The position numbers and the translations under genes were made by a program. 64,000 nucleotides of DNA from Craspedostauros australis (Eukaryota > Bacillariophyta > Bacillariophyceae > Mastogloiales > Achnanthaceae): contig JAMXDE010000011.1 of assembly GCA_026770025.1 (NCBI GenBank), positions 2,108,001 to 2,172,000 of the forward strand. Reading direction: 5' to 3'. The notes below the pieces were generated by a model, which did no database searches, was not told the origin of the DNA, and saw only the letters and a list, made by a program, of their open reading frames with translations. Positions 1-11,662 of this stretch are shown here, one piece after another. How positions within the stretch are numbered: the stretch's first letter is position 1; each line of letters starts with the position of its first letter.

Positions 1-72
1 AATCCGATCGTTGGTCTCGTTCCCATTTTGGCCCAGTTGGGCACCTCCCAGGATCTGCGCAACGTCCCCCAT
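1..72 (-). CDS. 5' end of an unidentified protein-coding gene (partial)
   Basis: Reading leftward from the ATG at 72-70 gives 24 open codons to the window edge, beginning MGDVAQILGGAQLG. The ATG has a favourable context (cacaATGG). Too little is visible to name a family. If real, the gene is divergent from RFC5, and the TA bordering the large inverted-repeat element lies about 80 bp upstream of its start codon. The short length is the main doubt; the good start context and position beside an insertion are the support. Confidence 0.4.
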   Translation of the reverse strand, partial: MGDVAQILGGAQLGQNGNETNDRI

Positions 73-151
73 TGTGATTGCGATTCAAGTCAATTGTGCT
101 GGTGAGAGTGTGATACTCCGGTCTGCGAGGCCATGTGCATGTGCATGGGTA

Positions 152-201
152 CGACCTCCAGGTCGCAGTTGATGCACTCACGATAACACTAGTTGTGGAG
201 T
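152..201 (+). repeat. Left terminal inverted repeat of the element
   Basis: Inverted copy of 9744-9793, with one mismatch at the second base from the outer end. A TA sits immediately outside at 150-151. Confidence 0.85.
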
Positions 202-1760
202 GTTTTTTGAGTTTTACTCGTGATGAGTCGTGATAAAGTAGACTAAATTAGAGCACACCCAAAACCATCCAAACAACTGCTTATGATGTTATATCTCAAC
301 AACGCACCATTTAAAATTAAAACTAGACAGTTCATTCGGACGCTTGGCTATCGTTTATTCTGAATATCTTAGTTAAATTTGTATGAACTTTATTTTTAAT
401 GTCGTTTTGGCTTGCTGTCTGTCAGGTGGTGGGTGCAAAAAATTCTCGATGGCACCATGCTGCCCTACCTTCAGCACCCATGATCATCATTATCATCCCT
501 GGCATTTTCACAATCTGCGCACCACACTGGCTCCGGATACCCCCCATCTATCCACTCCATGAAGATCCTGCGCAGATAGCCGCATCTCATACTCCAAACT
601 GTCCCTGCACTGAAACGCAGAATTTTCGAACACCCGATTCCGACACGGATGCCGTTCGGATTTGGATCCGTATCTCGTCGATACGATCCTTGCAGCTCCT
701 TCACATGCCCCTCATGCGTTCCCACATTCTCTGGCGACACACTGATGTGTTCAGAATGGGTGGGGCGCTCATACCTCCAAAGGTGCACCTCCATGTGATG
801 ATGCCATCATGATGTTTTTCCGACACCCAAAAAAATCCCTTTCGTGTGCATCCCAGGCTGCAGCCTCTTCCAGACCGTATCTGCGCAGGATACTTCGCCA
901 TGGCCATCTTGAGTTGATTCCTAACACATCTTGAATGGGTGGTTTGGCGATATGGGTGACTTTTCAATGGCACCCATCACCAGCGAAGTCACGTGATGTG
1001 TCCGCCGCCACCCGCCAAAAAACTCTTGCCCGCCACTTGTTTCTTGCGGAGGGCACCTTCCAGGCCACCCCCGACCCTCAAACTTCGTGTGCATCTTCAC
1101 CGTATCCTCTTGGATACGTCTTGCCCATCCATGGTCGTTGGAATGGCCTGTGCATTCCAGGCAGAGACCATATCCAATGAGCATATTTTCCTCCGAATCG
1201 TGCCGTGTGCGCGTGGGCCTGCCACGGCCCCAAATAAGCCAAGATGACATCCCGCTCTCGCTCATCCACCAAACTTTCCATGGCGGTTCCGCCTATGCCC
1301 TCAGATCTTGCACTGGACCGCTGGTTGTGGCAGTGCCGTCGATGCCATTCGACAGCGCTTGTGGAGTTTTGTTGTGTTTCTCCATTGTCGTGTTGTTGTG
1401 TTGTGTTTGGTGTTCTCAAACAGTTTTTGCTGTTGGGGGCCATGGAGATTAACCACAATTCTACCAAATGCGCCCATCAATGAGAACACTTTGCGAGTCC
1501 CGAATTGCACCTCCATTCCACAACGACACAGCGAAGGCACAAAATCCTCCTCACAAAATGGACAACGGAAACATTGCGCATCTGCGACGAGCTGCTGTTG
1601 ATTCTCTGCTGCTTGTAGTCATAGCTTACACAGAATGTAGAATGACTGTGACCTTCCCACAAAGGAAAGAGTGGATGGTACAAGGCACCTTGTGACCATC
1701 CTCCTGTGTTGTTCATGCCGTTCTGTGGTGCGCTGCGCCGTGCTGCGCGTCAATGACTGG

Positions 1761-1820
1761 TGCTGTGCTGTGCTGTGCTGTGCTGTGCTGTGCTGTGCTG
1801 TGCTGTGCTGTGCTGTGCTG
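1761..1820. repeat. (TGCTG)12 pentanucleotide array
   Basis: Twelve perfect copies of TGCTG, 60 bp, inside the left arm of the element. It creates artefactual repeat ORFs in several frames. Confidence 0.97.
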
Positions 1821-2109
1821 TTCTCCTTGTGTGCCTGGTGTGCGTCGCGACCAGCCAATCTCGTACAATCAGCTTGCAACCTCTATTGACACACAGCTAG
1901 TATTCACCATGAGTTCCCTTGTTGTTAGACCATGTGTGCTGAATCAATCCAATCGTTGTTCGAGTTTTGAGTCCTTTGTGTCAGTCACACTTCGTTTCGA
2001 AAGATCCAAGAAAACTACTCGATAGAATTCGGAAAATGTGATGCGGGTTTCAGACCCAAGACAAAATTAGGAAGATGATCCAAGAGGATCAAAGAGACTC
2101 TATTAGACC

Positions 2110-2139
2110 TCCAAACATGTGTCATTGCACATGTTTGGA
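2110..2139. repeat. Perfect 12-bp inverted repeat with 6-nt loop
   Basis: Arms 2110-2121 (TCCAAACATGTG) and 2128-2139 are perfect reverse complements around the loop TCATTG. It lies about 270 bp upstream of the transposase start and could be a hairpin or a binding site in its promoter region; the function is not known. Confidence 0.8.
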
Positions 2140-2406
2140 CACAGATACACTAATTAGCAAGAGTAACCAGAAGTTTGGCATGGTTACAACACGATGGACA
2201 ATGGTGAATAGCACCATTAGTGGAGCCAAGAAGTAGAAAACAGGAAGATGATGAGCTCTTATTGATGAGCTCATAATCTCAACAAACTTAACTTTGTAAA
2301 CCATCACTTCAAACAAGCACACACAATAACACAGTTCTATCAACCTTCACCAACATTGGACGTAGTTGTATCATCCCGCAACCACTGAACTCTTCACCTC
2401 GCAAGC

Positions 2407-4953
2407 ATGCTGCGCGCTGGTGACTGTGTGAAGGTGGCATCCCACCAGAGCTCAAGCGGCAGGGTCCATGACCTGGGCGTATGTCATGTTGATTTTGCAA
2501 TGAAGCAGACCACGGACGGCGCTACAGTCAAACGCAATGGGCCTCTTGCACCAGGAGAGGTGGCAATGGTCATGGTGACCCCAGTGATGGGGCAGAGCCG
2601 AATGTATGTTGTTCGCGAGGATCTGTGCACACCACACAGCCTCGCTACCTTCGCACGGACTCGCACTGCTGGAGGCCTTGCTAAGCCTTCCCTCCTTTCT
2701 CCCCAGCATCACTCCGTCGCTGCCACGCGTGTCAACAACAAGGCTAAGCCCCCCACACCATCCCCAACTACCACAGAATCGCAAGAAGCCAAAATCGCCG
2801 CTTTTCTCGAGGTCTCGCGGCGTCAGAAAGCAACAGCAATCGCCCAGCTCACGAACCAGATGAAGAAAGGCGCGAAAACAAAAGGATGGTTGCGAAAGGA
2901 TGGAGGGCATAGTATTGCTAAGCCTGGTAATCTTAGCAAGCGCCTTGACAAAGAAGACAATCGGAACTACACTGTTCTCTATTTCAATTTGGGTGGGATT
3001 CCTGAACATGCAGAGTTGATTGCCCATGCATGGGGTATCAACCGCACCACAGTGGGGCGCAACATTGTGAAATTCCAAACGGAGACGCTCGAATGCAAGA
3101 AGCGAAGTGACGCAGGCAGCAGCATCTTCACCTGCCCCATCAAGCAACGACAGTACTTCACGCAGCGCGCAGCCTTTGAGAAACAACTACGTCTTCGACA
3201 TCCAGAGCAACAGTTCAAGAACGACGAAATTGATTCTGCCTATGCCTCTGCTTCACCGGAAGAGCTGGCATCCGCAAAAGTGCTGGCTGATTTGTGGTTG
3301 GAGCGTGGTCCCTTCCTGCAATTTGAGCTCCAGGATGTGTTGCGACGGTGCAATGGCGCAATCTCGTGGGACAGAATTGCATGGAAACTGGCAGGCAGCG
3401 GAAACCCGCAAGTCGTTGGTCCGAAGTGTATTCGCAAATTCGTCATGGGATTGGAAGGCAGTGAGTACCGTTCTACAACAATACTCCCTCTGATCAATGG
3501 CACCACTACAGCAAAGCGCGACATCTGGGCTCAGGACTTCTGTGTGTTCTGGGAATCAGCTGAGCTGTTTGAGAATACGCAAGTTGTCCTTGTCCACATG
3601 GACGAAAAGTGGTTCTACTCCATTGTCGCTCGCATGCATCTGAAACATGTGCCCCAGATGGGAGTTAAGCCTGTGAAGCAGACTGTGCATCACAAGTGTC
3701 ACATTGACAAGACCATGGCAATTGCATCAACAGCATTTGCCCCAACAAATAACTGTTTTGCGAAAGGAGGAAAGGCGTATAAGGTGAACTTCGAACGTGT
3801 TGGGCGCATGGTCCGAGCGCAGAAGACCACGTACAAGCGAACTTGGGTCTCGCCGACCAAGTACAAGCACCTTCCTGATCCCGAGAAAATCTCTCGCAAG
3901 AAGGGTGAACTGTACTTCCAACCACTGGAAATCACGGGCAGCAAGGAAACAGATGGTCATCGTGTTAAGCCCAAGCCGAAGTACAGCCTCAAGAAATTCT
4001 TCCGCGAAAAAGAACTCCCCGCACTGGATTCGCTCGCCAGCAAAATCAAGGCCGAAACCGGAAAGAACGTGGTGATTCGGTACCAGATGGATGGCGCAGG
4101 GCCACACAGAGACACGGAGCTACTTAGATTCATCAACAAGGAGTTCGACAGTCGCGGATGGCACTTACGACTGCAACCACCAAATTCTCCCATCACGAAT
4201 GTGAAAGACGATGCGATATTCCCAGCGATGTCAAAACACGTGTCAGCGTATCAAGGTGAGCACCATGGAAGCCGATTGCTTACCACTGAGGCATTGTGGA
4301 ATGCTTGTGGAACCTGTTGGAAACAATTCAAGCTGGACAAGGTGGCTAGCGCGTATGTTCGCCACAATCAGATTGCCTACGCAATTTGTGCTGCAAAAGG
4401 AGGTGACGAATTTGTGACGGAGCGCAAGGGACTGCACATGAATGTGCGGAAACAAACGTCCACGGAATTCGACAAAGAGGGCAACAAGATCGGCGTTACC
4501 GTGTCTCACACGGACTTCGTGTTGGAGGAGGATGAGGCTACCCGCGCGACCACCAACAAACCAACTGCAACAGACAACAAAGGCAAATCAGCTGACTTCA
4601 AATACGCCAAGCCCGACATCAAAGGTATGTACGATGATGCGCTCAAGGTGATGGCTGTCAGTGGACTGCAGTGCCTGAAAACGAATCTGCCAACAACCAG
4701 CAGCCTCATTCCGTTGCTGGAGAAGCAAATCGTTGCGACAACCAGAGCCAACGAGGAGGCTGAGCAACAGAAGAAAGACGAGAAGAGAAAGAAGCAACCC
4801 AGCAAGAGCAAAGCCGACATCATTGAGCCTTGCAACAACAACAGCAAAGCCAAAGCAGCACCCACCATGAACACATTCGAAGTGGCCATGTTCGTTGGCA
4901 AGGACGAGCATCACAGCAAAGCAGAGCAGGATACCAACACAGCAGAGATGTAG
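2407..4953 (+). CDS. Mariner-like DDE transposase
   Basis: An 848-residue uninterrupted frame ending in TAG. A helix-turn-helix-like segment near residues 205-225 (AWGINRTTVGRNIV) would bind the TIRs. The catalytic triad is visible: D399 in HMDEKWFY, D562 in YQMDGAGPH and D601 in PPNSPITNVKD. The spacing is DD38D to the first aspartate of the final DD pair. These motifs match the plant/protist mariner-like group (IDEKWF; DNAxPH; NSPDxNVLD). The length is well above the usual 350-450 residues. The extra sequence is a long N-terminal region (about 150 residues, Pro/Ser/Thr/Lys rich) and a Lys/Gln/Asn-rich C-terminal tail. All three aspartates and the open frame suggest an active or recently active enzyme. 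The first ATG was used; the true start could be further in. Confidence 0.9.
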   Translation: MLRAGDCVKVASHQSSSGRVHDLGVCHVDFAMKQTTDGATVKRNGPLAPGEVAMVMVTPVMGQSRMYVVREDLCTPHSLATFARTRTAGGLAKPSLLSPQHHSVAATRVNNKAKPPTPSPTTTESQEAKIAAFLEVSRRQKATAIAQLTNQMKKGAKTKGWLRKDGGHSIAKPGNLSKRLDKEDNRNYTVLYFNLGGIPEHAELIAHAWGINRTTVGRNIVKFQTETLECKKRSDAGSSIFTCPIKQRQYFTQRAAFEKQLRLRHPEQQFKNDEIDSAYASASPEELASAKVLADLWLERGPFLQFELQDVLRRCNGAISWDRIAWKLAGSGNPQVVGPKCIRKFVMGLEGSEYRSTTILPLINGTTTAKRDIWAQDFCVFWESAELFENTQVVLVHMDEKWFYSIVARMHLKHVPQMGVKPVKQTVHHKCHIDKTMAIASTAFAPTNNCFAKGGKAYKVNFERVGRMVRAQKTTYKRTWVSPTKYKHLPDPEKISRKKGELYFQPLEITGSKETDGHRVKPKPKYSLKKFFREKELPALDSLASKIKAETGKNVVIRYQMDGAGPHRDTELLRFINKEFDSRGWHLRLQPPNSPITNVKDDAIFPAMSKHVSAYQGEHHGSRLLTTEALWNACGTCWKQFKLDKVASAYVRHNQIAYAICAAKGGDEFVTERKGLHMNVRKQTSTEFDKEGNKIGVTVSHTDFVLEEDEATRATTNKPTATDNKGKSADFKYAKPDIKGMYDDALKVMAVSGLQCLKTNLPTTSSLIPLLEKQIVATTRANEEAEQQKKDEKRKKQPSKSKADIIEPCNNNSKAKAAPTMNTFEVAMFVGKDEHHSKAEQDTNTAEM

Positions 4954-5075
4954 CTGCAAATCAAAGTAGTAGTATTATATGTTATAGGCACACCTGTGAT
5001 TGGAGTGCCTGTGTGCACATCGTCTGTTTGATGGCATGGAGGATTGTGATGTGTGATGTGTGATGTGTGGTGTGT

Positions 5076-5140
5076 GGTGTGGTGTGGTGTGGTGTGGTGT
5101 GGTGTGGTGTGGTGTGGTGTGGTGTGGTGTGGTGTGGTGT
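5076..5140. repeat. (GGTGT)13 pentanucleotide array
   Basis: Thirteen perfect copies, 65 bp, about 120 bp after the transposase stop, with related GTGTGAT units just before and after. Confidence 0.97.
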
Positions 5141-5606
5141 GTGATGTTTGTTTTGTGTTTTGTGACGAGTGGTGTGAATTGTGTGACGCGGACCGTATTT
5201 TTGTGTCGTGAATGGTGTGCGTCGTGGAGCCATCGCGTCGTGGAGCCGGCACGTTGTGTTGTGCCGTTCTGGTCGGAAAATTTCCATCCGAACCACACAC
5301 AAAAACGCTCCAAGGCCTCAACTGCGTCGATCGGAGCGCCAGCACAATCGGTGTGTGTCGCACAAACCAATCGAATGGCAAAGCCTCCTCTTGGTTGGTA
5401 CCGCACTCGTACATCTGTACCACATCGTGCCATGCCAGTATTCCGCTTTCTCTTCATCACACATGTGCAACCCTCGCGATCGTTGCTGCCATCAAGTCCA
5501 AGCGTCTGTACTCGTCACTGGAGCACCAACGATGCATCCTCTGATCATTCATCTCTGCTCGTGCCCTGCCGACGGCGCTGCCACTAGCACAATCGTCATG
5601 TATTGG

Positions 5607-5631
5607 TAGAGTAGAGTAGAGTAGAGTAGAG
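5607..5631. repeat. (TAGAG)5 pentanucleotide array
   Basis: Five perfect copies. Shorter TAGAG runs recur elsewhere in the window (for example near 23545 and 11661), so this unit is common in this genome. Confidence 0.95.
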
Positions 5632-6317
5632 CGCAACGAATCCACACCATACCATGCTCATATGCTATACTATGCTATGTTGTGATGTGCTAGTGCAGCT
5701 CCTATAATATGTTACATTCGATGAGCTATTCCGTCGTCTGCGTGCTGAAGACGAACACGCAGGACGCCCCCTTCTGCAGATACAGACGTTCTGGGTAACC
5801 AAACGTGGCATCACCGAGTCTTCGTTTTAGTTCGCACATAACGTTTCCTCGCTGAGCTGGCCTCGAACAAGACAAGTTTAGAATACTCGACGAGTTGTAC
5901 GACAAGAACGCAAGTGCACTCGTATGGATGTCTGGACGGAGTGGTTGAAACTGTAGTCAAGTTGTGTGGTTCATCTTCGGATATGCTCCCTTGAAGTCAT
6001 GGGCAAAGGTACCATATCATGCTATACTAGCACATGGAAGTACGAGAATGCACAACTGGCAAGGCGCAGCACAGCACAGGATGCAAACGATTGTTCCATG
6101 ACTGTATTGTAACATGTATTCTATTCTTCGATCATCGTGCCATATGCAACGATGGAGTTGAGTTGAGCCATTTGTTCTGAATATGGATCGCATCCATGCT
6201 GTCTTGCCGCTGCGGAAGATGCGACCGTATGAGCATGGGCGTACATGTGGATACGTCGTGATGTTTGTACTCCCACTCCTGTTCGCGCCCTGAGAGTGCG
6301 GTCAGCCATTTCATTTT

Positions 6318-9039
6318 TCAAGAGCATGCATCGTTATTTTGTCCAGGGCAGTCGTTGGATGGGCTGTCGATGGTGTAGGTCCAGCCAGGAGAGCCGCTGC
6401 ACATGTCTGTCGCCATGCAGTCCTGACAGTTGCTTGGAGCCGCGCAGGTGTTCGCCGCCACGACCAGATCATCAACCGCCAAGTTGGAGTTTGCAACACC
6501 GTTACAGCTGTCTTGTGACAAGCATGTGCCACTGCCGATGGTGATACAACCGAGAGTCTTGAACGGGCCAGCGTGAACATTCTGACTAGCGCGTTGTCCC
6601 TCACAAGCGTTCATCCCCACGTCGATGTTGGCAAGCGTAGGTGTGGCGATACTGGGAGACTGGTCGGCGCAAATTCCAAGGCCTTTGCAGCCGTCCCCGC
6701 CATTTCATCCTGCGTGTTGGGTCCAGATGTTACCATAGATGTTCTGCCCAAGATTCTCGCAGCTGTTTGTGCTGGTTCATGCGGCTGGCCCGATGATCTG
6801 GTAGCCAATGGTGGCCGTGGCACTGGGAGGGCTGGAAAAAGATCCAAGATTCTTGCAGGATTTTGGTCCCAGACAGCTGCTGAGGATGATGGCATCCTTC
6901 GAAACCTCTTCGCAGGAACTATCACTTGCACATGAGTCCAGGGTGATGATGATGTCGCCCCTGAGAGTCCAACTGAGAGTTCCTCAGCGGCAGGCCCCGC
7001 CCACAGCACCGCATCTCGTGGATAGGCTTGCGGCGTTCGCAGTGAGAAGGATGCCATCGCCTTCGAGAGCAGTGAGGATGGCTGCGATTGCTTGGGGGTC
7101 ATTCTTGATGCGATCAAATCGTACCTGCGCCTGTTGCTGCGACGTCCGGCTGCCTTGGTCGTCATCGCATCCGAAGATGCTTTTCACGAACCTGTCCTTG
7201 TTCATTGGGAGAGACTCGTTGTCGTTGACGAATTGTGCGCATGTGCCCACATCATCATCGCAGAGGACGACTTGTCTGGAGGTGAAGCCCGCAGTAACCT
7301 CCCCAGCCTCATTCAAGCAAAGGGTCTGCAGGGTGGTCTTGTTGATGGTTGGGGAGTTTGTTGGAACAAAAGTTGACAGATCGGATGGCTGCTCTGTCGG
7401 AATCATCGTTGGGGTATCGCTTGCCAGCGGAGAAGGGGGCGAAAGTTGGGCAATCTGTTGGGCGTTGGTCTTTGTTGATGCAGAATTGATCGACCCTTTT
7501 CACTGGTTGGGTCGCCATCGACGTCTTTGGGGCAGGCGACGGCAGCATTGTAGATAATGAAGACTTCGTCGCTGTCGCAGTTGGTTTTTGTCATGCATTC
7601 GTAGCATGCGCCGCTGCTGTCACAGCCATAGTCTGGCACAATGATGTCAGTTGTCACTGAGTCACCGAATCCCAATCCCGGGCAAGCGTAGGCTGCGGCG
7701 CAGGCATTGTCGCCGATGCTCAAGCTGCCCTGAATCTTCGCAGGTGATGGCAACGAGTGCATGTGCAGTCGTAGTAACCGCTCGCATGTGCTGCGGTGCA
7801 TGCATATTCACCAAGGCATGCGTTGAACCCAATTCTGACGTGGCTCTGGGAACGGCTGGGCCCGTACTGTTCAACGCGGTAGCCAACGCTCGCACAGGCG
7901 TAGGGTCCAACGCAGGCGCCGCTTTGTATGATGGCGTCTCTGTAGGAGTATGTGCCAGCAAGGACGCAGGAAAGATAATCAGTGCAGGCCAGTTGACCAA
8001 TGAAGGTGACACCGTATGTTGGGTGAGGACCATAGCAATTGGAAACATAAAGAGAGTTCATGCCGGCGCATACCCCTTTGCTGGTACAGGATGAAGCCAG
8101 GACCAATGTGTTTCGTCCCATCCTGTCGCAAGATCCAGACCCAATGCAGGCAGTGGTGGCAATGGTCATGAAACTGTAACCGTCGGCGCTGGTACAGTGA
8201 TACTTCTCTGCACAGCTTGGAGCCCCAGCGTCCTGGCACATGTAGTAGATGTCCTCGCCACCGAGAGCTGTGAGCAGAGTGGTGCCGGCGGCGGACAATA
8301 GCTTCAGCTCCTCAGCTAGCAAGGGGCTGGACGCATATTGGTTGAATAGCTTGTGCGCATCCCCCTTGGTCAAGAGGCCAGCGCATGCAAAGTAATTCTG
8401 CAATCCTGGTGTGCTTCGAACAGCAGTGACGGCCTCGCGGTACGATGTCTTGGATGGATTGCAGATGATGGTCTTTGGCTCGGATGCCTCCGGCGGAAAG
8501 CATGGCGGCGCAACATCTGGCTCGCAGGCCACGGAGATGCTGGAATCAAATGCAAACGAGATGGTTGTCGGTGCAGATGTAGGCCCTGATGTCGGCATGC
8601 TGGTTGCTCCGCCTGTTGGCTGGTCGGTCGGTGATGAGGTAGGCCTCAGGGTTGGATTGCTGGTTGGCAAGGCAACTGGCCGCCCAGTTGGCCTTGAAGT
8701 TGGTGCCCCAGTTGGTGGCAAGGTTGGTGTAGAAGTCGGTGTTGTCGTCATTATTCAGGCCAACGCAGTTGGTGCCAATGTAGGAGAGCTGGTAGGCGAA
8801 CTGGTTGGTGCCACACTGGGATTGCTGCTTGGATTGTTGGACGGTGCTCCCGTCTGTTTGTTACCCTTGACGTTCTTTGGAATGAAACCGCCGTCGCCCT
8901 TCAGCAGTCTGGTTGCCTGCATCGCAACATGAAGTTCGTTGGTTGGGTCAATCAATCTATGGCCGCGAAGGATGGCATCGATCGTCTTGCATTCGGCGAG
9001 CAAGATCGCCGTGATGGTAACTGCCTTGAAGTTGAGCAT
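6318..9039 (-). pseudogene. PT-repeat / Cys-rich secreted protein gene, disrupted
   Basis: It begins at ATG 9039 with a plausible signal peptide (MLNFKAVTITAILLA), followed by PTxxPT repeats. It continues as a Cys-rich repeat domain with motifs such as IGFNACLGEYACTAA and IGDNACAAAYACPG, a second PT stretch (IPTEQPSDLSTFVPT) and a second Cys-rich stretch. Such PT-linked Cys repeat proteins are typical of diatom secreted or cell-wall proteins. The frame is broken. In-frame TGA codons occur at 8755-8757, 6984-6986, 6777-6779 and 6705-6707. Frame changes occur near 7750, 7500 and 7420. The last segment ends in TGA at 6318-6320. No typical GT-AG introns explain the breaks. It is most simply a decayed cargo gene of the element. 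A low-quality assembly or unusual recoding cannot be excluded; all in-frame interruptions are TGA. Confidence 0.7.
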
Positions 9040-9743
9040 CTTCGGTTTCCACGTGATCTTTGCTTGGTTGTGGTTTGCTGGAATGCTGTTTCTTTCCTCT
9101 CGAATTTGGACGAGCGGTTTACTATTGCTCGTATTTGCTTCGAGGCTCCTTCACACTCGTGGCTGGATCGGTACTTTTGGTTGTGTTGATGTCGTCCCTT
9201 GCGCCTTGGCGTTCATGCAGGAGGATCGTGCTGCACGGTTGCGCAGGATGCATACCGTACCACGTTGATCATGTGCGCACCGCATGTTATCGGAGAAGAA
9301 AAATGGAAACAGCAACAGTGGCAAGAATGTGGATTGGCTGAGCTGTGCATGCATCATTCACAGGATTGGCAGCCGAGGTGAAGACGATGTTGTGGTGATT
9401 GGCGAAGCACTGTCGTCTGCGTCGGACAGCTCGCCAATGCGCTTCGTCGTATTCCGAGACGATTGGCTGTTGCTGGTTTCCATTGTGAGACTGGTCAACG
9501 TGGAGTGTTGTTGGCTGTCCTGGCCTGGCACATTCTGTTGTCGCCGCGCGCAGTCATCATCTTGTCTTGCGGAGGAAGAGTCACACGATGTCTCTTCCTC
9601 TGTTGTGACTCGTTTTTCATGACGTGGAATACGTTCCCTGTGACGTAGAAGACGGATCAGCGAGAGCAAACACACAATAGCTCTAAATATCCAATCGCCG
9701 TTTCTCCCAAAAGCAAGCAAACCAGTGACAACAAGGGGCCAAA
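9040..9743. other. Right arm of the element
   Basis: Upstream of the PT/Cys-rich gene and inside the right TIR. One minus-strand ORF (9834-9358, 158 codons) starts outside the TIR, crosses it and encodes two hydrophobic stretches then a polar tail. It has no recognised motif, and I regard it as chance or an insertion-created frame. Confidence 0.45.
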
Positions 9744-9793
9744 ACTCCACAACTAGTGTTATCGTGAGTGCATCAACTGCGACCTGGAGGTAG
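9744..9793 (-). repeat. Right terminal inverted repeat of the element
   Basis: Inverted copy of 152-201, with a TA immediately outside at 9794-9795. Similarity stops sharply on the inner side. This is what a TIR looks like, as opposed to a long segmental inversion. Confidence 0.85.
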
Positions 9794-9795
9794 TA

Positions 9796-10151
9796 TGATG
9801 GGAGTATCGTCAGACAGAAAACAGATCTCCACACCAGACTGCCTCATGTTGCGTTTGTGCGGCCAATCCTCGTTGTGCATGTTTTGAGTTGTTGTTGTTA
9901 TAGTCGAAGTGGTCAACAGTTAGGACATGAATATTCTGAATTACCGCAGCTTCTGGGGATCGTTGTTGGTCCAAAATTCACACCAACAGAAGCGTGTGCG
10001 CAACAACTGTGAAAACACACGAGCTCATTGACGATCTTCATCGCATCGCGAGTCCAACAACCGATACGAATTGATGTCTGTACCATCACTTGGACAGCAA
10101 GCCAGAAAAGCACCCTCCATCATTCGCCCTTTCCATCTCTGAACCATCGCA
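9796..10151. promoter_or_regulatory. Upstream region of RFC5, beside the transposon end
   Basis: These 356 bp separate the right TA flank of the element from the RFC5 start. Before the insertion, this stretch plus 73-149 would have formed a divergent promoter of roughly 430 bp. No specific motif was identified. Confidence 0.4.
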
Positions 10152-11662
10152 ATGAGCGCCGAAGATTCGAAACATGATGCTGGCACCGAGCTGCCCTGGG
10201 TCGAAAAGTATCGTCCGTCAAGGTGAGCGCAATCCATGAATCCTTGGTGATTGGCGTGTGTGCATTGGCTGTGCTTGGCGATTCCATTGCGGTGTGTTGG
10301 CGTTGGCGTTGGCGTTGGCGTTGGCACCCTGCGATGAAAGCTTGGGCGACCCGGGTTTTGATGTGGCAACAGGCGTGGCAACAGCTGTGGAAGATCACCC
10401 AACCATCCTCTCATCTCTCCCTTCCATACACATCGTGCACTTTCGCACACTTTCAAACTATGTATTCTATACAACACCAGACTCGAGGATCTGGTCGCCC
10501 ATGAGAACATCATCAACATCATCACCAACCTCATCGACAGCGACAACCTTCCGCATCTGCTGCTGTATGGACCACCGGGAACGGGAAAGACCTCGACCAT
10601 CGTCGCCGCGGCCAAGCGGATGTACGGCAGCAAGGCGTACTCGAGCATGACGCTGGAACTCAATGCCTCGGATGCTCGTGGAATTGACGTAAGTGCGGGC
10701 GTACCAGTACTCTCTCGGGTGACATGATGCGCTCTGCTCTGCAATCACTACGAAATCGACAATGAATAGTGCTGCCGCTGGCTACTGCTGTGTGTGTTTG
10801 TGAATGTGCGTTCTGCCATCTTCACCAACGTCACTCACTGCCAAATCATGCATACCAACCCATGCTCCAAACTCTAAATTCCATTACATATAATACCTCT
10901 CAACGCTCCTATCCCATTCTGAAACGCATGCGCTTGCAGGTCGTCCGCAAAGAAATCAAGGACTTCGCGGGCACCCAGCAGCTCTTCAAGAAGGGAACGA
11001 AGCTCATCATCCTCGACGAGGCCGATGCCATGACGAAGGATGCGCAGTTTGCTTTGCGACGCGTCATCGAGCAGTACACGAAGAATGCACGCTTTTGCTT
11101 GATCTGCAATTACGTTTCCAAAATCATCCCCGCCTTGCAATCGAGATGCACGCGATTTCGGTTCGCGCCGCTCAACCGGGATCAGATACAGGGCCGGTTG
11201 GAAGAGGTCGCCAAGATGGAGAACTGCGACGTCACGGCGGATGGGATCGACGCCATCCTGCGTCTGGCTGGTGGCGACATGCGGCGCGTTCTCAACCTAC
11301 TGCAATCCACCTCCATGTCCACGAAGACCATCAGCGAAGAAAATGTGTACTTGGTATCTGGAGCACCGTCGCCACTGGACATGGACACGATACTGCACGT
11401 TCTGCTAAACCAACCCTTCAAGACGGCCAACAAGACCATTTACGATCTGTGCACAACGAAGGGATACGCCATCGTCGATGTCATCCAGGAACTGTCCCTG
11501 CGAGTGGTGTCATTGAAATTGGACGGCCAGATGCTGGGGCGCTTGCTCGACGGGATGAGCGACGTCGAACACCGTCTGGCATTCGGAACTGAGGAACGGA
11601 TACAAATCGCGTCGCTCGTTGGCGTTTTCGTGCAAGCTAAGGAACTTTCCAACAAGCAATAG
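10152..11662 (+). CDS. RFC5: Replication factor C small subunit (RFC5 type; yeast Rfc3)
   Basis: Three exons: 10152-10222, 10481-10688 and 10940-11662, with GT-AG introns of 258 and 251 bp, giving 333 residues. It is a subunit of the clamp loader that opens PCNA and loads it at primer-template junctions in the nucleus. Visible motifs: the RFC box near the N-terminus (PWVEKYRPS), Walker A GPPGTGKT (54-61), the ELNASDARGID segment ending exon 2, Walker B LIILDEAD (115-122) and the SRC arginine-finger motif (161-163). The run VVRKEIKDFA, FKKGTKLIILDEAD and LICNY fits the RFC5 paralogue better than RFC2 or RFC4. Length matches the family. The first intron contains a (GTTGGC)5 array. Confidence 0.95.
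10296..10325. repeat. (GTTGGC)5 hexanucleotide array in RFC5 intron 1
   Basis: Five perfect copies within the intron 10223-10480. Confidence 0.95.

Follow-up and report, generated by a model that had tools for sequence, protein, structure and literature searches.

Ends, copies and empty sites of a 9.6-kb element

We analysed a 64,000-nucleotide stretch (the window) of the genome of the diatom Craspedostauros australis (contig JAMXDE010000011.1, positions 2,108,001 to 2,172,000), near the start of which lies a 9.6-kb mariner-like DNA transposon carrying a host-related gene behind its transposase. Positions given without a contig are window positions, and C1, C10, C13 and so on are contigs of the same genome assembly, in which 74.8 Mb on 90 contigs were searched. 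The element proper spans 152-9793 and is bounded by a left (152..204, plus strand) and a right (9741..9793, minus strand) terminal inverted repeat (TIR), which we delimited by comparing the two arms, by searching the genome with a 23-mer and by aligning copies, and then by one TA dinucleotide on either side (150..151 and 9794..9795). The left TIR, a leader of about 2.2 kb and a transposase gene of 848 aa in a single open frame (2407..4953, plus strand) make up a conserved left part, which is followed by a cargo slot (5821..9459) and a conserved right end.

The two arms with their TAs (150-204 and 9741-9795) are inverted and 96% complementary across 55 nt. As the sequence-only reading that preceded this work had reported, the arms are identical at 49 of their first 50 nt, and the sole mismatch within the first 52 nt falls at position 4. 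No other long inverted repeat of the window comes close to this pair, the other 17 pairs listed being matched at 70-82%, except for two rows of one microsatellite palindrome at 87-90%. The same reading had placed the TAs immediately outside the interval 150..9795; a TA does border each end, but both lie inside these coordinates.

The proposal that these ends enclose a single mobile unit with cargo was borne out when the genome was searched for inverted TIRs at similar spacing. The TIR 23-mer gave 84 matches at no more than two mismatches, 73 of them exact, while a reversed-pattern control gave none. Pairing the exact ends by hand yielded 36 inverted pairs and one end truncated by a contig start; 27 of these pairs are spaced by 9.3-9.7 kb, one by 10.2 kb, four by 7.0-7.2 kb and four by 17.6-18.8 kb. 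Three of the four widest pairs match the whole-element query over 1307-9646, 1-7494 and 3713-9646, respectively, and look like copies broken up by insertions. With the whole element (9646 bases) as query, the window copy was recovered together with nine other full-length copies at 99-100% identity and three long partial ones, a lower bound since 13 of 602 candidates were scored.

In all of the 31 pairs (of the 36) for which both flanks were read, TA was found at both ends, the TA having belonged to the search query in this test. The TA is not optional, since it is where every one of the 40 left-end rows and all but one of the 42 right-end rows begin. None of the flanks of the 31 pairs matches the flank of another locus, except for the C75/C61 pair and for one repeat that occurs near both the C47 and the C22:348856 insertion. 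As C75 and C61 look like two versions of one region, independent sites are slightly fewer than pairs. In both versions (C75:2639-22016 and C61:1-17789), two elements stand tail to tail with 47 bp between their right ends. At C17:433405-435926, a TIR pair of 2.5 kb, with no transposase there among the matches listed, is probably a deletion derivative.

For 28 insertions, we then reconstructed the unoccupied site by fusing the two flanks at a single TA, and used these sequences as genome queries. Uninterrupted sites with a single TA were found for the insertions on C47 (35 of 42 rows listed, 96-100% over about 114 bases), C34 (7 of 42, 98-99%), C16 (3 of 40, 84-91%) and C22:348856 (11 of 40, 83-90%; 97 of 112 bases in the query, junction included), which shows that the TA is a target-site duplication. 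All four of these insertions went into repeated DNA. The remaining joined-flank sites gave only self matches or no row among the best 40 candidates scored per search; in the search that included C47 and C34, these two repeats filled the list.

The recurrence of the whole unit decides against two short elements lying by chance 9.6 kb apart in inverted orientation with ordinary host DNA between them, an alternative that the sequence-only reading had itself raised. Its attraction is size, since the available text of PMC8533490 gives 1.3-2.5 kb as typical of Tc1/mariner elements and up to 7 kb for Sailor. Nevertheless, the entire 9.6 kb is found again as one unit at different places, and four other copies have a matching single-TA empty site; we regard two separate short elements as ruled out by the whole-element copies.

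The sequence-only reading had also deduced recent movement from the near-identity of the TIRs. Recency held up, but not on that ground: the same G/T mismatch between the TIRs is found in 10 of the 10 full copies checked, so that it is the identity from copy to copy, and not that between TIRs, which is informative. The ten copies compared differ by 0-0.4% (one with 945 unread bases), and nearly all their length variation comes from two internal microsatellites that this comparison delimited, a GTGCT repeat at 1760..1821 and a GTGTG-type repeat at 5058..5141. The copies at C20:219895 and C20:239235, which are 9.7 kb apart and have different flanks, show zero differences over their whole body, which points to a local hop. 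Recent movement of the element is supported by its many near-identical copies in different places and by the single-TA empty sites of the four other insertions. Along the element, mean divergence among the ten copies climbs about tenfold from left to right (0.06% in the left 2.2 kb, 0.22% in the transposase and 0.57% in the right 0.7 kb), and this unevenness may reflect recombination between copies.

Two alternative cargoes in one antisense slot

The sequence-only reading had seen a secreted-protein gene inside the element. A PT-repeat cargo is indeed there, but it appears to be a captured host gene that is broken in all nine copies compared. On the minus strand, 6155..9412 is about 89% identical in DNA to C13:873850-878700 (matched over 6155-9065 and 9134-9412, the 68 bases of 9066-9133 being unmatched), where C13:874739-877462 is an intact gene of 907 aa. 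Frame comparison with this gene places in the window a pseudogene of a secreted, cysteine-rich PT-repeat protein at about 6318..9039, split over several frames; the PT repeat was recognised by Pfam (PF04886), and the signal peptide and cysteine pattern were read by eye. The similarity to C13 ends on both sides of the 6155-9412 segment, the middle and right end of the element being unmatched there, and the TIR core was not found in the 3.65 kb checked near the C13 gene, which has no transposase close by either.

Relative to the C13 frame, two frameshifts and four stop codons are common to 9 of 9 copies (the tenth has unread bases), and one extra frameshift is found in five of the nine, including the window copy. 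Since all nine share the mutations that break the cargo, the burst happened with an already broken cargo. Judging from these comparisons, the PT cargo would be a host gene that was captured and then broken before the compared copies spread, and in the window's family it is most likely a dead passenger.

The family of this cargo is large: among 118 matches scored of 1315 candidates, 46 are at 76-100% identity and 72 at 43-51%; in these more distant ones, 538-1,571 aa are open. Paralogs at 44-48% on C5 and C31 were considered as further elements and rejected, as the 3.2 kb on the transposase side hold other content (by eye and on that one side, a phosphatase-like open reading frame on C5 and a copia-like fragment on C31) and not the transposase of the element. 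Six more cargo-like loci at 76-89%, with neither a transposase nor a TIR nearby among the matches listed, could be either host genes or old remnants. On C73, PT-cargo paralogs at 7550, 16265 and 24980 have an exact spacing of 8715 bp, which suggests a tandem array.

A sister element of 7 kb on C10 aligns with the window as far as 5820 and then from 9460 onwards, and thereby defines the cargo slot: it shares with the window the left end, the stretch after the transposase and the right end, and has between them a different insert of 1.43 kb that codes on the minus strand. A stretch of 165 aa from this insert, the one insert of its kind read at base level, matches NCBIfam models of N-acetylglutamate synthase (NAGS; amino-acid N-acetyltransferase) at E 2.3e-18, below the curated full-length cut-off, and the solved NAGS structure 2r8v at E 1.3e-4, while Pfam gave a weak AA_kinase match on the insert (E 0.081).

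Searching the genome with this cargo gave 11 candidate rows, all scored: eight elements (that on C64 as two rows), a gene at C24:209017 and one distant relative on C8. The C24 gene has an 891-aa frame and no transposase there among the matches listed, and is probably the host gene. In seven of the eight elements, the antisense NAGS match has its nearest end 1299-1407 bp beyond the transposase, and in the one on C33 at 2114 bp. In three copies (C33, C52 and C72) the match lies in an open frame of 617 aa; the TIR positions listed give a length of about 7.8 kb for the C72 element and 7.7 kb for the C52 element. Identity to the C10 insert is 92%, 85-99%, 80% and 78% in other matches and 79% in the C24 gene. 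A third cargo suspected on C3 was discarded, as the 600 bases read there hold no recognised gene and are about half minisatellite. TIR pairs of 8.8 kb at C17:895838-904668 and C23:238139-246972 have neither a PT nor a NAGS match among those listed, nor, on C23, a transposase; these elements may hold further cargoes.

We next related cargo to transposase lineage, by counting antisense cargoes up to 12 kb downstream of 53 transposase rows (53 scored of 216 candidates, 45 of them without internal stop), using those 46 of the 118 PT rows that reach at least 76% identity and all 11 NAGS rows. Altogether, 35 transposase loci have a PT cargo, 8 have NAGS and 10 have neither. By identity to the window transposase, the class at 98-100% (29 loci) has PT in 29 of 29, the class at 94-95% (8 loci) has 4 PT and 4 NAGS, and the class at 82-88% (16 loci) has 2 PT, 4 NAGS and all 10 loci with neither. 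On C1, a NAGS that is 92% identical to that of C10 accompanies a transposase just 82% identical to that of the window, while on C31 and C38 transposases at 94% accompany NAGS genes just 78% identical to that of C10. Because both cargoes occur in two transposase identity classes, the cassette seems to have been replaced or exchanged between transposase lineages, a suggestion based on identity classes and not on trees.

The same mismatch between cargo and transposase could come from many independent captures or losses instead of exchange. One NAGS insert, that of C10, was read at base level, and the other NAGS matches range from 78% to 99% in identity to it, with the C24 gene at 79%, which leaves room for this scenario. 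On the other hand, repeated events would hardly give such constant positions, with the PT match 2917-2996 bp past the transposase in six of the six PT-carrying elements outside the 98-100% class and NAGS at its own near-constant distance in seven of eight elements. We see independent captures as a possible but less favoured account and prefer replacement or exchange of the cassette.

Another way to look at the slot is that its content helps the element, which would then be a functional two-gene element and not the carrier of a passenger. One of the two cargoes does sit in the same antisense slot at 43 of the 53 scored transposase loci, and the 617-aa frame was retained in three NAGS copies. 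However, the most numerous family has its gene broken in 9 of 9 copies by common mutations, the cargoes of the window and of C52 differ by 2 silent and 11 amino-acid-changing substitutions, and neither cargo is found at 10 of the 53 loci. An accessory role is thus improbable in our judgement, and a passenger is what we retain.

The direction of transfer could also be reversed, the C13 and C24 genes deriving from cargo that was left behind or adopted by the host. With only about 89% DNA identity between the C13 gene and the element cargo, neither is a fresh copy of the other, which counts in favour of a reversal. But the C13 flanks have no similarity to the middle or right end of the element, 72 further loci at 43-51% have long open frames, and at the two of these read on one side the neighbouring sequence is the phosphatase-like or copia-like one and not the transposase of the element. 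We find this reversal even a little less probable than an accessory role, and continue with capture from the host.

Transposase, family assignment and overall reading

The DDD transposase that the sequence-only reading had recognised between the TIRs was confirmed as an 848-aa frame, with a candidate catalytic core at 3601..4209 (plus strand) made of D399 (codon at 3601), D562 (4090) and D601 (4207) in the contexts HMDEKWF, QMDGAG and NVKD. There are 38 residues between the last two aspartates (DD38D) and 162 between the first two; the three were assigned by eye, guided by the motifs of plant mariners. Plant DD39D mariners have about 38-39 residues between their last two aspartates and similar motif blocks, and we take the HMDEKWF and QPPNSP..N..D blocks and the DD38D spacing of the window protein to resemble theirs.

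The TA duplication, the TIRs at both ends and a triad spacing within the DD34-41 range of Tc1/mariner elements (with aspartates placed by eye) are all found here. Based on TA, TIRs, DDD motif and spacing, the transposase likely belongs to the mariner family, and we call it mariner-like; the mariner label of the sequence-only reading stands on these features, but Pfam, NCBIfam, PDB sequence and fold searches lent it no support. An element from another TA-targeting superfamily that merely resembles mariners would fit with the missing mariner profile matches and with a transposase of 848 aa that has 162 residues between its first two aspartates. Yet the TA duplication is exact and the motif blocks and spacing are like those of plant DD39D mariners, so that we judge this origin unlikely, if less remote than an accessory cargo, and keep the mariner-like assignment.

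Altogether, we consider, with a probability of roughly 0.82, that the 9.6-kb unit is a giant mariner-like DNA transposon which was active recently and is probably autonomous, built of a conserved left part, a cargo slot and a conserved right end. In this superfamily, the transposase acts on the TIRs and transfers the complete element to a TA, after which the donor is restored by gap repair. By the same route, the transposase would bind the 50-bp TIRs, excise the whole element and join it to a TA, and copy number would grow through repair of the donor gap. Host genes would have been taken up behind the transposase, ahead of the right end, probably when faulty gap repair switched to a host template, and later recombination in the shared flanks may have replaced or swapped the cassette.

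Several observations weigh against this interpretation. Single-TA empty sites, of the kind that the sequence-only reading had proposed to look for, were found for four other insertions, but not for the window's own, for which only the two halves of the filled locus were matched in the genome. Searching with the transposase gave no match in Pfam, chance matches only in NCBIfam and, among PDB sequences, none at E up to 10 with the whole protein and one chance match with the core; the PF13358 profile had no match in the whole genome. In all of these searches, an absent match is weak evidence. For the RNase H-like fold expected of the catalytic domain, two AlphaFold models built without an alignment were too poor (pLDDT 39.5 and 38.3), and a Foldseek search with the first of these poor models returned nothing at E 0.001. 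Among the ten copies, 14 transposase codons are variable, with 5 silent and 9 changing differences, at a depth where selection is only weakly visible.

On the cargo side, the overall dN/dS between the cargo and C13 is 0.59, and 0.47 in the second half, so that part of this divergence was under constraint, for which the host branch is the simplest place. By eye, the cargo junctions showed neither microhomology nor a footprint of capture, and 5821-6154 and 9413-9459 match neither C10 nor C13, the two loci compared. Finally, the left ends of the window, C10 and C4:3241892 are about equally distant (126/1527, 141/1527 and 134/1541 differences), and do not support placing C4:3241892 together with C10, a grouping that was therefore dropped.

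In the window, the element sits between divergently transcribed genes (1-149 and 9796-10700). On its left is a DMAP1-like gene (PF16282, E 3.1e-25) whose start codon is about 77 bp away, and on its right a gene for a replication factor C subunit (PF08542 and others) whose likely start codon, placed by eye, is about 357 bp away. Elsewhere, the silicon transporter family is very large in this genome, with 88 PF03842 matches, 32 of which cover at least 480 of 513 positions; this is indicative of a diatom, even if the family is also present in some other protists.

Relation to known elements and significance

The closest precedent is provided by the virus-borne mariners of Bao and Jurka 2013 (PMC3627910), which, in the available part of that paper, share TIRs and a transposase half, differ in their 3' genes and have TA duplications, as does the family studied here. 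They are described there as single-copy and virus-associated, with endonuclease, methyltransferase or Fanzor genes, whereas the window family is high-copy, lies in a nuclear genome and carries host-like genes for a secreted PT protein and NAGS; neither of these two cargoes encodes a nuclease, a methyltransferase or Fanzor. Relatives of the transposase were looked for in viral and prokaryote contigs and none was confirmed.

Plant DD39D mariners such as Soymar, Osmar and Ppmar likewise have a TA target, TIRs and three aspartates, but the window element differs by its far greater length (9.6 kb), its 848-aa transposase, its TIRs of about 50 bp and its captured genes. In diatoms, mariner-like elements were reportedly described by Nguyen et al. 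in 2014 from Amphora acutiuscula. TIRs of the superfamily are typically 12-28 nt long, according to the accessible text of PMC4054914. A review of giant eukaryotic transposons (PMC6431247) states that the efficacy of DNA transposition falls above 6 kb of cargo, and the portion of it at hand contains no word starting with Tc1.

Pack-Mariner elements of rice and maize (Gisby and Catoni 2022, PMC8903248, as far as its consulted sections go) also have host coding DNA captured between mariner TIRs. Those examples hold short fragments, and Pack-TYPE elements are described there as non-autonomous; here, nearly whole genes travel with an intact transposase frame, its 848 aa being open in the window and uninterrupted by stops in 45 of the 53 scored matches. 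Among the open-access papers listed (titles and starts of abstracts, at most 20 rows per search out of up to 926 papers, a coverage outside which most subscription journals fall), none was seen to describe a NAGS or PT-protein cargo in a mariner, and the sole open-access paper with both "mariner" and "N-acetylglutamate synthase" deals with mutagenesis in bacteria.

Tc1/mariner transposons are usually one-gene elements, and the captured genes of Pack-TYPE elements ride on non-autonomous derivatives, in the same available sections of PMC8903248. A high-copy element of 9.6 kb with an intact transposase frame, near-identical copies and alternative host cargoes shows that a mariner-type element can carry several kb and still spread. 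Beyond the window, this is a family with at least two alternative cargoes. Since a single genome holds donor-like genes, captured copies, sisters with another cargo and single-TA empty sites, gene capture by TIR transposons becomes testable within it. More tentatively, diatom genomes may hold autonomous giant mariners with a modular cargo cassette, which would take whole host genes into a fixed antisense slot, swap them between lineages and thereby duplicate and spread working genes such as NAGS.

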